Shown here piece after piece: positions 27,021 to 31,590 of a stretch of DNA of 37,209 nt. Each line of letters opens with the position of its first letter. Position 1 is the first letter of the stretch. Location: positions 1 through 37,209 of the forward strand of contig JAPKDK010000003.1 in NCBI GenBank assembly GCA_028872645.1, read 5' to 3'. Source of the DNA: Verrucomicrobiota bacterium (GTDB lineage Bacteria; Verrucomicrobiota; Verrucomicrobiia; Limisphaerales; UBA1100). A program made the position numbers and the translations under genes. Below the pieces are notes generated by a model that was not told the DNA's origin, did no database searches, and saw only the letters and a list, made by a program, of their open reading frames with translations.

Positions 27021-28154
27021 TCATTCACTCAAATCCAAAAACTTAACACAAACCGGCATGGGCACTTTGACTGAATGGCTGGTGGGCTTCAGCTCGCCGG
27101 TATCTTGGTTAATATGAAAAGTGAAAACATCACCGCTGGATTGATTGGCAGCAATTAGAAATTTCCCAGTGGGATCGATGCCGAAATTACGGGGTGTTTT
27201 ACCCAGCGTGGACTGATGTTGAATCGCCTTTAGCTTGCCGGTCTTTCCATCGATGCTGAATACCGCAATCGTGTTATGCCCGCGGTTGGAGCCGTACAAA
27301 AACTTCCCGCTCGGGTGCACCTGCACTTCCGCCGTGCTCATCCCCTTCCCTCGTTCCACTGGTAACGTCGTAATGGTTTGCAACTCGCTTAGTTTACCCT
27401 TCGCTTCATCCCATCCAAAAGCAGTAACAGTAAGCGTGATCTCATTAATCACGTAAGCAAATTTGCCGTTTGGATGAAACGCAAAATGCCGGGGACCAGC
27501 ACCGGGAGCTACCTTGGTGAAACCTACTGGGGTCAACTTACCGCCTTTCGCGTTAAAACCGTAAACTAGAACCTTGTCTAGACCGAGATCAGCCGCCACG
27601 GCAAACTTGTTGCCCGGTGATACGTTAATGGAATGACCATGTGGAGCAGCTTGCCTGGGTTTCAATACACTCGAACCTTTATGTTGGATAAACGAGGAAG
27701 CTTTACGTAAACGCCCTTTTCGTGAGATCGGCAAACTTGCCACACTGCCGCCGGTATAGTTGGCCACGAGGACGTTTCGGCCGGTGGCATCCACCACCAG
27801 ATGACATGGTGCCCCACCCTTGGAGGATTGCTGGTTGAGGAACGTCAAGGCACCGGTCTTTGGGTCAATTGAATACGCACTCACTCCTCCGGCCTTCTCG
27901 CCCTTGTAATTGCTAATCTCATTGACCGCATAGAGAAATGTTTTATTGGGATGGATGGCGAGGAATGAAGGGTTCTTTTGCCCGGCCAATTTTCCCACCG
28001 CCGTAAGCTTGCCCGTTGCCATTTCCAATTTAAGCCAATGGATCCCTTGCTCCTCGGTTTTGGTGTAGGTGCCAATATAAACCAACAACTCCTTTGGAGC
28101 CGCCTGAAGGTTTAAAGTAACAACACAAACTAGAGTGATTAAAAACGTGCGCAT
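27021..28154 (-). CDS. Secreted lactonase-family seven-bladed beta-propeller (Pgl/YbhE-like)
   Basis: A 377-residue protein with a signal peptide (MRTFLITLVCVVTLNLQA). It follows the 6-phosphogluconolactonase YbhE pattern: LLVYIGTYTKTEEQGIHWLK, NPSFLAIHPNKTFLYAVNEI, GAPCHLVVDATGRNVLVANY, PHGHSINVSPGNKFAVAADL, GPRHFAFHPNGKFAYVINEI, STAEVQVHPSGKFLYGSNRG and TPRNFGIDPTGKFLIAANQS. These are the seven repeating blades. Cytoplasmic Pgl opens 6-phosphogluconolactone; this exported form more likely acts on a periplasmic sugar lactone, a product of sugar oxidation. The substrate is inferred. It converges with the AraC-type gene with a three-base gap, so no terminator fits between them. Confidence 0.92.
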   Translation of the reverse strand: MRTFLITLVCVVTLNLQAAPKELLVYIGTYTKTEEQGIHWLKLEMATGKLTAVGKLAGQKNPSFLAIHPNKTFLYAVNEISNYKGEKAGGVSAYSIDPKTGALTFLNQQSSKGGAPCHLVVDATGRNVLVANYTGGSVASLPISRKGRLRKASSFIQHKGSSVLKPRQAAPHGHSINVSPGNKFAVAADLGLDKVLVYGFNAKGGKLTPVGFTKVAPGAGPRHFAFHPNGKFAYVINEITLTVTAFGWDEAKGKLSELQTITTLPVERGKGMSTAEVQVHPSGKFLYGSNRGHNTIAVFSIDGKTGKLKAIQHQSTLGKTPRNFGIDPTGKFLIAANQSSGDVFTFHINQDTGELKPTSHSVKVPMPVCVKFLDLSE

Positions 28155-28264: not shown

Positions 28265-29443
28265 ATGAAAATACACACAATGGGAGCCGTTACCGCAGTA
28301 TTGCTACTGATCGGCAGCATTTCTGTTGTGATGGCCGATGACAAAAAGGAAGTCAAAGATCCATTAACGGAGAAATATGCCACAAAGGAAAAGGAAATCG
28401 GGGTCGCCCTCAAGTCAGGATTAATCTCGAAAGATTTGGCTGAGAAGATACTTAATGAATACGAAAGACAATTAAAAGCTGACCAACGAAGAGGGCAATT
28501 TCGCAACCGACAAGCTGGCAGGGTATTTGGGGAAGCAAGGGACCGTGCCGATAAAGCGCGTGAGGATGCCAGGGCGCGTATGGAAGAAAAAAGAAAGAAC
28601 CGGGGTCCAGGCTGGGTATTTCGAAATGGCACTACGACCAGCTCCGATGGTAAAGGCGGCCGTTACACAATCACAGTTAGTAACGGTGAAAAACGATTCA
28701 AAGCCGAAGGTGGTGGAGCTTTGCTATTTGACGGGCCAGTGGATACCGAGAAGCAGCGTGAGACGTTGGACACCAAGAAGGTGTATGAAGGCCTCGTCAA
28801 CGCGAAACAAAAGCCCGCGCAAACAAAGGCCACCGCTGCTGCAACGGCACTGACCAAGGCGCTGGCCAACAAGACTTTTGCTGACAAGGCGCAGACCGAG
28901 GCAAATGCCGAGACAAAAGAACAAGCGCAAGCCAAGGCCGCCGAGGCTGCGAAGACACTGACCAAGGCGCTGACCGACAAGACTCTTGCTGACAAGGCGC
29001 TGACCGCAGCCAATGCCGAGGTTGCAAAAGCCAAAACCACTTTTGATTCGGCAAGTTTCTCGGCACCGGATGGCAATTTGCTCAAGAAACTTGAACAAAT
29101 GGAAGAGGGGCGTGTGGGTATTCGCGCGGCAGCCTTCCGCGGGCGCTGGGAAGAAATGCGAAAGAACCAGGGGCAAGCATTTGATCCATTCGCCCGCCAA
29201 CGACTCGGCGGTTTTAACGGGGATAACCCGTTCAAGGAACTCAACTTGACTGAAGAACAGCAAAAGAAAATTGCTGCTATTAGGCTAAAGCAAAGCGAGG
29301 AACAGCTTGAGTACTCCGAGATGATGAAAGAACTGGATGAAACGTATCAAAAGCGGATGGAAGGACTTCTGACTGACGAGCAGAGGGGGAAGTACAAGGA
29401 GATGCAATCTCAGCAAGGCCGCCGGCCTCCTAGAGGTCGGTGA
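28265..29443 (+). CDS. Secreted coiled-coil protein with Spy/CpxP-like LTxxQ C-terminus
   Basis: A protein of 392 residues beginning at ATG 28265 (MKIHTMGAVTAVLLLIGSIS leader); the track ORF's start lies upstream without a leader. Order: a charged helical region (LISKDLAEKILNEYERQLKA); a beta-like module at about 116-180 (GRYTITVSNGEKRFKA, FDGPVDTEKQRETLD) that is also found in the next gene; an Ala/Lys/Thr coiled coil made of a 36-residue tandem duplication; then LLKKLEQMEEGRVG and a helical end, NLTEEQQKKIAAIRLKQSEE and LLTDEQRGKY. The two LTxxQ motifs resemble Spy/CpxP periplasmic chaperone-like proteins. No full-length family is known to me. The PDZ gene follows 38 bases later, probably in one operon. 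Confidence 0.8.
   Translation: MKIHTMGAVTAVLLLIGSISVVMADDKKEVKDPLTEKYATKEKEIGVALKSGLISKDLAEKILNEYERQLKADQRRGQFRNRQAGRVFGEARDRADKAREDARARMEEKRKNRGPGWVFRNGTTTSSDGKGGRYTITVSNGEKRFKAEGGGALLFDGPVDTEKQRETLDTKKVYEGLVNAKQKPAQTKATAAATALTKALANKTFADKAQTEANAETKEQAQAKAAEAAKTLTKALTDKTLADKALTAANAEVAKAKTTFDSASFSAPDGNLLKKLEQMEEGRVGIRAAAFRGRWEEMRKNQGQAFDPFARQRLGGFNGDNPFKELNLTEEQQKKIAAIRLKQSEEQLEYSEMMKELDETYQKRMEGLLTDEQRGKYKEMQSQQGRRPPRGR
28849..29020 (+). repeat. Tandem in-frame duplication, 108-base period
   Basis: ACTGACCAAGGCGCTG begins at 28849 and again at 28957, and about 64 bases match closely in both (28849-28912 and 28957-29020). The period equals 36 codons, so the reading frame is kept and the coiled-coil segment TLTKALxxKTxADKA is doubled. 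The high base identity points to a recent event. Confidence 0.8.
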
Positions 29444-29481
29444 TTGACGTACACTGACTTTAACCTAAATTGAAAATCAAA

Positions 29482-30555
29482 ATGAAAAGACTACTTATCC
29501 CAATAATCGCTGCAGCCATCACGTTGCCCGCCTTGGCAGCTGACAAAGATAAGATTCCGGAGCCCTCCGCCAAAGAAGCCTCCGGCACCTACCTTGGAGT
29601 AGCAATGGGCGAAATTCCACCCCTCACCCGCGCGCAGCTCGGCCTGCCCGAAGGCATTGGCGTATCCGTGGAACACGTGACCAAAGGAAGCGCGGCGGAA
29701 AAGGCCGGACTCAAGGCAAATGACATCATCACCCAGCTCGATGAACAGCTCATTATCAATAGTCAGCAATTACAGACCCTCATCCGCACTAAGAAACCCG
29801 GCGACGAAGTAAAGCTAACTTATATTCGCAAAGGCAAAGAACACAAAGCTAAGGCCAAACTTACCAAAGGACCGATCGTGGCGCGCACGCCGCAGGCCTT
29901 GCGATTGCAAAATAGCAAGTTGTTGCCCTTCAACCTACCCAACGGGCCGGAAGGTCAATGGCAACAGTTTAACCTGCCCAATGGGCTCGGCCATGGGCAA
30001 ATGCAAATGTTCAAACTGAACCCGCAAAATCTTGATCAACTGAATGGGCAGTTAAAAAACATTCCAGGCATTAACCCTGAGGATTTGAAAAAACTGCTCG
30101 AAGGACAGGGGCTCAACTTTGGCCAAGGTGCCCCTAAAGGGAATGGCGGCAAAGAGTTCAAGTTTCACTTTAATCTACCGGGCGGAAATAACGAGAACCC
30201 GAACCTAAACATCCGTAGACAAGTGGTGACCAGCGTCTCGGTCAGTGACAACACCGGCTCATACACGCTCAATACGAAGAATGGAAAAAAGACATTTACC
30301 GCGAAGGATCCCGATGGTGCGGAATCATTTGCCGGACCGGTGAACACAGAGGAACAGCGCGACTCACTGGATCGTAATCTCATCAAGAAGCTCGAGCAGC
30401 TGGAAGGCATGGGTGCCGGCAAGGGAGGCATCCAGCTCAACGGGCTAAACTTGAAGGGCGGCAATTTCAAATTCGACCACAAGTTTGATTTCAACATCGA
30501 GCCCTTCAAGCGTCAGCCGAAGAAGGCGCCAAAGAAAGAGCGCTCGGACGCGTAA
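29482..30555 (+). CDS. Secreted PDZ-domain protein sharing a module with the preceding gene
   Basis: A protein of 357 residues. ATG 29482 gives a clean leader (MKRLLIPIIAAAITLPALAA); the track's TTG four codons earlier is less likely. Residues about 35-130 are a PDZ domain of the HtrA/DegS type (YLGVAMGEIPPLTRAQLGLP, VEHVTKGSAAEKAGLKANDI, LIRTKKPGDEVKLTYIRKGK), but no protease domain is present. A Gln/Asn/Pro-rich linker with repeated FNLPNG follows. A module then resembles the upstream protein: GSYTLNTKNGKKTFTAKDPD, FAGPVNTEEQRDSLD, LIKKLEQLEG. The end is basic (KRQPKKAPKKERSDA). It is probably a periplasmic adaptor working with the LTxxQ protein; no enzyme activity is visible. Confidence 0.85.
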   Translation: MKRLLIPIIAAAITLPALAADKDKIPEPSAKEASGTYLGVAMGEIPPLTRAQLGLPEGIGVSVEHVTKGSAAEKAGLKANDIITQLDEQLIINSQQLQTLIRTKKPGDEVKLTYIRKGKEHKAKAKLTKGPIVARTPQALRLQNSKLLPFNLPNGPEGQWQQFNLPNGLGHGQMQMFKLNPQNLDQLNGQLKNIPGINPEDLKKLLEGQGLNFGQGAPKGNGGKEFKFHFNLPGGNNENPNLNIRRQVVTSVSVSDNTGSYTLNTKNGKKTFTAKDPDGAESFAGPVNTEEQRDSLDRNLIKKLEQLEGMGAGKGGIQLNGLNLKGGNFKFDHKFDFNIEPFKRQPKKAPKKERSDA

Positions 30556-30575: not shown

Positions 30576-31499
30576 CTAGCGGGAATCTTCCGCTGGACGA
30601 TCACATTGACCGGCGGGAGGCTCCGCTTCCACCGGCCTTTTTATTTCCACCGAACCACTGCGGATGTGTAGGTCCCTCTGCGGGAAAGGAATCTCGATAT
30701 TATTTTCGCGCAATTTTTTCTCGATTGCAAAATTGAGGGTACTAATAAACCGCCGCGGCCGCGTAGTCATCGAGGCGGTCCACAGCGCCAGCTCAAAGTT
30801 CAGCGAATTGTCGCCGAAACTATCAAAAAGCACCGAGGGCTTGGGGTCTTTCAGCGCCTTGGGACTTTCATCAGCAATCTCCAGCAGTACTTTTTCCAGC
30901 AACACAATGTCCGACCCGTACGCCACGCCAATGGGCACGCGAATGCGCACCTTCGGATCGCCGTGGCTCCAGTTGGTAACCGTCTGAGAAATGAAATCCG
31001 CATTAGGCACGATCATCGTGATGTTGTCATTGGTAATCACGGTGGTGCTGCGGAGGCTGATTTTCACCACGCGCCCGGCGATGCCACTCACCTCCACGCG
31101 ATCGCCAATGGCGATGGGCCGCTCGGCAAAAATGATGATGCCGCTCACAAAGTTATTGATGATATTTTGCAGGCCGAAACCGACACCCACACTGATGCCG
31201 CCGGCGATGAGCGCCAGCGAGCTGAGATCGATTCCCACAAACTGCATCGCCATATACCAGCCAATGACGATGAACACATACCCCATGATTCGGGCGAGGC
31301 CGTACTCCAACGATTCGGGGAAATCCGTCTTCTCGAAAATGCGCATAATCACGCGCTCGCGCAGGATTTTTTCCAGCAACAAAACCACCGCAAACAACAC
31401 GCAAAGAATCACCAAACTTTGCAGAGTGAGACTGCCCTCGCCCATTTTAATGAGCGGATAAGTCAGCACCTCTCTGATGATTTCCCAAGTTTTATCCAT
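30576..31499 (-). CDS. MscS-family mechanosensitive ion channel
   Basis: A 307-residue inner-membrane channel that opens under membrane tension to release solutes. Three hydrophobic segments are visible: LQSLVILCVLFAVVLLLEKI, IMGYVFIVIGWYMAMQFVGI, and the pore-lining SSLALIAGGISVGVGFGLQN followed by IINNFVSGIIIFAERPIAIG, the hallmark glycine-rich TM3 and start of the beta domain. GDRVEVSGIAGRVVKISLRS, IVPNADFISQTVTNWSHGDP and the late IEIPFPQRDLHI complete the family pattern. The short length is the simple MscS type. The C-terminal tail (PVEAEPPAGQCDRPAED) is unrelated filler. It converges with the PDZ gene and is divergent from the TPPII-like gene. Confidence 0.95.
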   Translation of the reverse strand: MDKTWEIIREVLTYPLIKMGEGSLTLQSLVILCVLFAVVLLLEKILRERVIMRIFEKTDFPESLEYGLARIMGYVFIVIGWYMAMQFVGIDLSSLALIAGGISVGVGFGLQNIINNFVSGIIIFAERPIAIGDRVEVSGIAGRVVKISLRSTTVITNDNITMIVPNADFISQTVTNWSHGDPKVRIRVPIGVAYGSDIVLLEKVLLEIADESPKALKDPKPSVLFDSFGDNSLNFELALWTASMTTRPRRFISTLNFAIEKKLRENNIEIPFPQRDLHIRSGSVEIKRPVEAEPPAGQCDRPAEDSR

Positions 31500-31590
31500 G
31501 CCAAAACTGACGGATGACTATAACAAATCTGCAATGATTTCAACGAACAAAGTTGGCAAGCCCAACGTCCATCATTATCCTATCGCGCAA

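Follow-up and report, generated by a model that had tools for sequence, protein, structure and literature searches.

An unnamed module shared by a secreted LTxxQ-like protein and a protease-free PDZ protein, and the ECF sigma factor operon in which it usually occurs

Two adjacent genes of a marine verrucomicrobial bacterium, designated here A and B and located in a stretch of 37,209 nucleotides (the window), both read as genes of secreted proteins and share a homologous module of approximately 58 residues. The A-B pair is real but local, and the broader result is the module itself together with its usual operon, in which a gene for an ECF sigma factor and one for a small anti-sigma-like protein precede a PDZ gene whose product ends in the module. 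Thus the boundary, predicted fold, range and conserved operon of an unnamed domain are now described, and envelope-stress signalling in Verrucomicrobiota and Planctomycetota can be tested gene by gene. Furthermore, in one genus the regulator has been lost, its presumably periplasmic partner B has stayed, and a new protein with the same tail is found in the regulator's place.

Gene A (28265-29443, plus strand) codes for a secreted LTxxQ-like protein of 392 amino acids. Gene B (29482-30555, plus strand) starts 38 bp further on in the same direction and codes for a secreted PDZ protein of 357 amino acids without a protease domain. In most of the family relatives examined the locus is flanked by a lactonase-type beta-propeller gene (27021-28154, minus strand) on one side and by a MscS-type channel gene (30576-31499, minus strand) on the other. 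A preliminary description of the pair at 28265-30555, made from the sequence alone, had quoted three stretches common to both products; coordinates and stretches proved to be correct letter for letter, and it can be added that the third stretch of A lies about 100 residues further on, beyond an insert.

The relatedness of the two segments, proposed by the same description, was borne out by several comparisons. BLASTP of A against B gave E=1e-8 over the first two stretches, with NLLKKLEQME/NLIKKLEQLE aligned as a separate piece. Profile A3, which was built from 17 modules with no A sequence among them, found the copy in A at 28643-28777 with E=1.7e-11, and the profile-profile comparison (hhalign) of the A modules with A3 resulted in a probability of 99% and E=1.4e-18. 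Taken together, these scores exclude chance as the origin of the match. The A-free profile and the profile-profile comparison likewise rule out a low-complexity linker as its cause, the low-complexity portion of A being the insert and not the shared segment.

AlphaFold2, applied to 45 module rows, predicted four strands followed by a helix with a pLDDT of ~90. The order of strands and helix is predicted alike in A and B, although the two predictions are not independent, since the alignment of A included B-type rows. The module of B is complete (four strands and helix, 30238-30411, plus strand). In A, the strand part (GRYTITVSNGEKRFKAEGGGALLFDGPVDTEKQRETLD) occupies 28643-28777 (plus strand; predicted strands E122-128, E132-139, E142-149 and E152-158), and the C-terminal helix (DGNLLKKLEQMEE) is found beyond the insert at 29069-29107 (plus strand). 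The module had been called unnamed, and rightly so: in a Pfam search of the 45 module members no family was matched by more than three of them (best E 0.005). Among solved structures there was no convincing relative by sequence (best E 0.047), and no fold in the PDB resembled the module at E<=0.001. A likeness to the BON domain, seen in a single match (BON-like L053), was set aside, since the similarity seems to be local and limited to a strand, a turn and the start of a helix.

The order of elements in protein A is a signal-peptide-like N-terminus, a helical region, the module, a coiled-coil insert and the LTxxQ helices. The insert (28772-29068, plus strand) breaks the module before its last helix by ~100 residues and consists of two tandem copies of 108 bp (28801-29016, 80% identical) with flanking coiled coil; it was modelled by AlphaFold2 as a helical hairpin. 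The ortholog of A in the sister genome G001 is free of the insert and has the module whole, and the insert is lineage-specific. Similar stretches are found in large proteins, mostly of 1150-1300 residues, encoded in many relatives and elsewhere in the genome of the window. Outside the module and the insert the model of A is poor (mean pLDDT 59). Comparison of the predicted model with solved structures yielded no significant match, with mostly coiled coils at the top of the list.

The earlier assignment of A as a Spy/CpxP-like LTxxQ protein was upheld in part only. The score of A against PF07813 (LTXXQ) is 14.3 bits (E=0.067), which is below the Pfam gathering score of 24.3. The label is based instead on the motif pair LTEEQ...LTDEQ (helices at 29222-29419, plus strand) and on the homology of the C-terminal part of A to secreted proteins with multiple LTxxQ motifs that these genomes also encode. 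One of these, L233 of the window's genome, is aligned with A at E=1.7e-19 and itself matches PF07813 at E=1.7e-12, so that by motifs and by homology to accepted members A can be counted with this family. These are also the features which A has in common with Spy and CpxP, whereas its score below the cut-off, its single LTxxQ pair, the module and the coiled-coil insert set it apart from them.

Protein B contains a single PDZ domain (29593-29862, plus strand; residues 38-127 according to Pfam; PDZ_2, E=1.6e-16), which passes the gathering scores of PF13180 and PF00595 with 60.7 and 37.6 bits. As in the PDZ domains of HtrA, DegQ and DegS, a carboxylate loop (YLGV) is present, and in NCBIfam the domain is matched to the PDZ region of DegP/DegS; by pattern search the HtrA-type loop was found in 56 of 69 module proteins. 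Unlike these proteases, B has no trypsin-like domain detectable by Pfam and hence does not qualify as an HtrA/DegS protease. The protein ends in the tetrapeptide RSDA (30541-30552; with the stop codon 30541-30555, plus strand). The same ending is found in the multi-LTxxQ protein L233 (G000:C65) and in an EF-hand protein with glycine/arginine/proline-rich stretches (L247, G000:C25). The C-termini of B and of the LTxxQ protein are mostly alike in the relatives as well, both being RSEA in G015 and G018 and both RDDI in G009; in G012 they differ (RSDA and RSEA, respectively). Such shared endings suggest a putative C-terminal tag.

The module was detected with a narrow profile in 21 of the 146 genomes of the order. 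Among the genomes sampled more widely, it is present in 61 of 289 from Verrucomicrobiota and in 7 of 149 from Planctomycetota; many of the genomes are MAGs, and the gene calls were mechanical. None was found in 18 genomes of other phyla, in a search that had no positive control. Nearly always it ends a protein of a single PDZ family, the exceptions being A and a secreted S15-type hydrolase. Of the 20 genomes in its family three have protein A, which was not found elsewhere. By profile, only G001 and G005 besides the window had an LTxxQ neighbour among the 69 module loci, and one further weak LTxxQ-like neighbour was noticed by eye in G019. That PDZ and LTxxQ proteins form a conserved chaperone pair is therefore not supported, the conserved partners of B being different ones; of the overall interpretation in the preliminary description, the homology of the modules and the envelope-stress setting remain. 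A module that chiefly ends the proteins of one PDZ family, and that is carried by a hydrolase as well, has no specificity for an A-B complex.

The setting follows from the conserved neighbours of B. An ECF sigma factor gene was found by profile in 49 of the 69 module loci across Verrucomicrobiota, and in all 49 it precedes the PDZ gene on the same strand, mostly by 330-760 bp; the anti-sigma-like profile was matched in 46 of the 69; both counts disregard kinship and include the eight loci that supplied the profile seeds and match by construction. The sigma protein is above the Pfam cut-off for sigma-70 region 4 and just under it for region 2 (23.8 vs 24 bits), and it scores 58-82 bits against the NCBIfam sigma70-ECF superfamily (cut-off 42.9), which places it in this superfamily. 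The product of the middle gene is a small protein with a likely single membrane span, as read by eye. It has no Pfam match and a weak match to an NCBIfam anti-sigma entry (E=0.015). It probably acts as an anti-sigma protein holding the sigma factor back. The pattern REE-x3-VP-[VA]-x-x-[YQH] is frequent at the C-termini of these proteins and could, as a guess, be the ligand of the PDZ domain. The same layout is kept in some Planctomycetota. The PDZ loci of other phyla in the same scan, a rough control, were devoid of the module, and only four of them had a sigma match, generic and in each case weaker than 1e-12. No description of such an operon was found in the open-access literature, to which the search was mostly confined.

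In the genus of the window the sigma and anti-sigma genes are present at the locus in G004 only, where they lie upstream of B, as they do in several genomes of other genera. In G002 and G003, B stands alone beside the lactonase gene, and in the window's genome (G000), G001 and G005 gene A is situated between the two. Neither regulatory gene adjoins B in the window, and a search of the whole G000 assembly (93% complete) revealed no ortholog of either. Outside G004 this genus has thus lost both genes, and in one sub-lineage A is found in their place.

Between the lactonase gene and the last codons of B, both included, the DNA of G000 and G001 is mostly 94-100% identical; the centre of A (28550-29190, plus strand) is the exception, with an identity of only ~44-67%. 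Such low identity between near-identical flanks marks A as a mosaic gene, the centre of which is a replaced or fast-evolving segment. The corresponding dS values, one pairwise estimate over short sequence, are 1.35 in the module of A and 0.05 in B. In the tree the A modules are placed inside the B modules of the family with moderate support (88/84), and the B modules to which the module of A is nearest are those of another genus, not that of its neighbour. A recent copying of the neighbouring B module into A is not supported, given the little DNA similarity between the two; this, along with the tree position and the closer B modules of the other genus, indicates that the copied module is old or comes from elsewhere in the family.

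According to the explanation we favour, to which we would give an even chance, B belongs to an ECF envelope-stress operon and acts in the periplasm as a PDZ sensor or adaptor, the tail serves it as a docking module, and A is an LTxxQ protein that captured this tail. The analogy behind the envelope-stress reading is the RpoE-RseA-RseB-DegS/RseP system of Proteobacteria (PMC8103513). Like that system, the related loci encode an ECF sigma factor, a presumed anti-sigma protein with one span and a co-encoded, presumably periplasmic component, and the B-type PDZ domain with its HtrA-type carboxylate loop is a possible reader of envelope damage. Unlike in Proteobacteria, the PDZ protein lacks a protease domain and has a beta/alpha tail that belongs to no named family, the operon is without a site-1 or site-2 protease, and the anti-sigma-like protein falls outside the Pfam families. 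In an operon ordered as sigma factor, one-span anti-sigma-like protein and tailed PDZ protein, the PDZ domain would most likely read exposed C-termini of envelope proteins, while the tail of four strands and one helix would dock B onto an envelope partner, plausibly the anti-sigma protein in most species. After the loss of both regulatory genes in the genus of the window, B would have continued to work without its sigma factor. In one sub-lineage A, with a copy of the tail of B, would have come to occupy their place, probably docking on the partner of B and acting as a Spy/CpxP-like holdase or brake; any contact between A and B themselves, as well as their regulation, is likewise presumptive. 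What speaks against the sigma-operon part is that the middle protein, a presumed binder of the sigma factor, has no Pfam match and only the weak one in NCBIfam. Besides, sigma control cannot be the sole function of B, since B persists here without the sigma factor and since, in several other families, the PDZ gene with the module does not adjoin a sigma gene. A more specific version would seem improbable: Verrucomicrobiota and some Planctomycetota would possess an ECF signalling unit free of proteases, where the operon's own PDZ protein binds the conserved C-terminal end of the anti-sigma protein (the REE pattern given above) and the tail completes the contact, and this unit would have been rewired here to a tail-copying LTxxQ protein.

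Alternatively, the module may be a general tail for envelope localisation, directed at the cell wall, the outer membrane or another abundant component, so that A and B share an address and not a complex. This reading, which we regard as possible though doubtful, gains from the many module loci without a sigma gene and from the two genomes of another family of the order (G078 and G110) in which an S15-type hydrolase (L131, L135; type read by eye) ends in the module, a location easier to reconcile with general docking than with a role tied to sigma factors. A general address tail, however, would be expected on many proteins, and most genomes have about one copy, nearly always in the one PDZ family. 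That the module is a self-interaction domain which joins A and B in one periplasmic chaperone assembly appears unlikely: the genes adjoin on one strand at a distance of 38 bp, have the module in common and recur as a pair in three genomes, but dozens of genomes that lack A have a B with its module retained, and the module of A was replaced in mosaic fashion while that of B is nearly unchanged between the sisters, which is unexpected for fitted surfaces. Little credit is also given to the reading of A as a transient chimera that serves no lasting function, for although A is limited to three genomes, has its module interrupted by a repeat and bears frame-breaking indels in G005, its frame in the window is open, its N-terminal part has a dN/dS between G000 and G001 far under 1 (0.16; 0.51 in the C-terminal part), and B of G005 is frame-broken too.

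The frame breaks in G005 (L016) are due to small indels, found in A and B each, and possibly reflect an assembly error or decay. At the other end of the locus, the MscS-type gene (30600-31500) and its counterpart in G001 share only 81-92% identity, compared with ~98% for the adjacent B, which marks a second recombination-like boundary.
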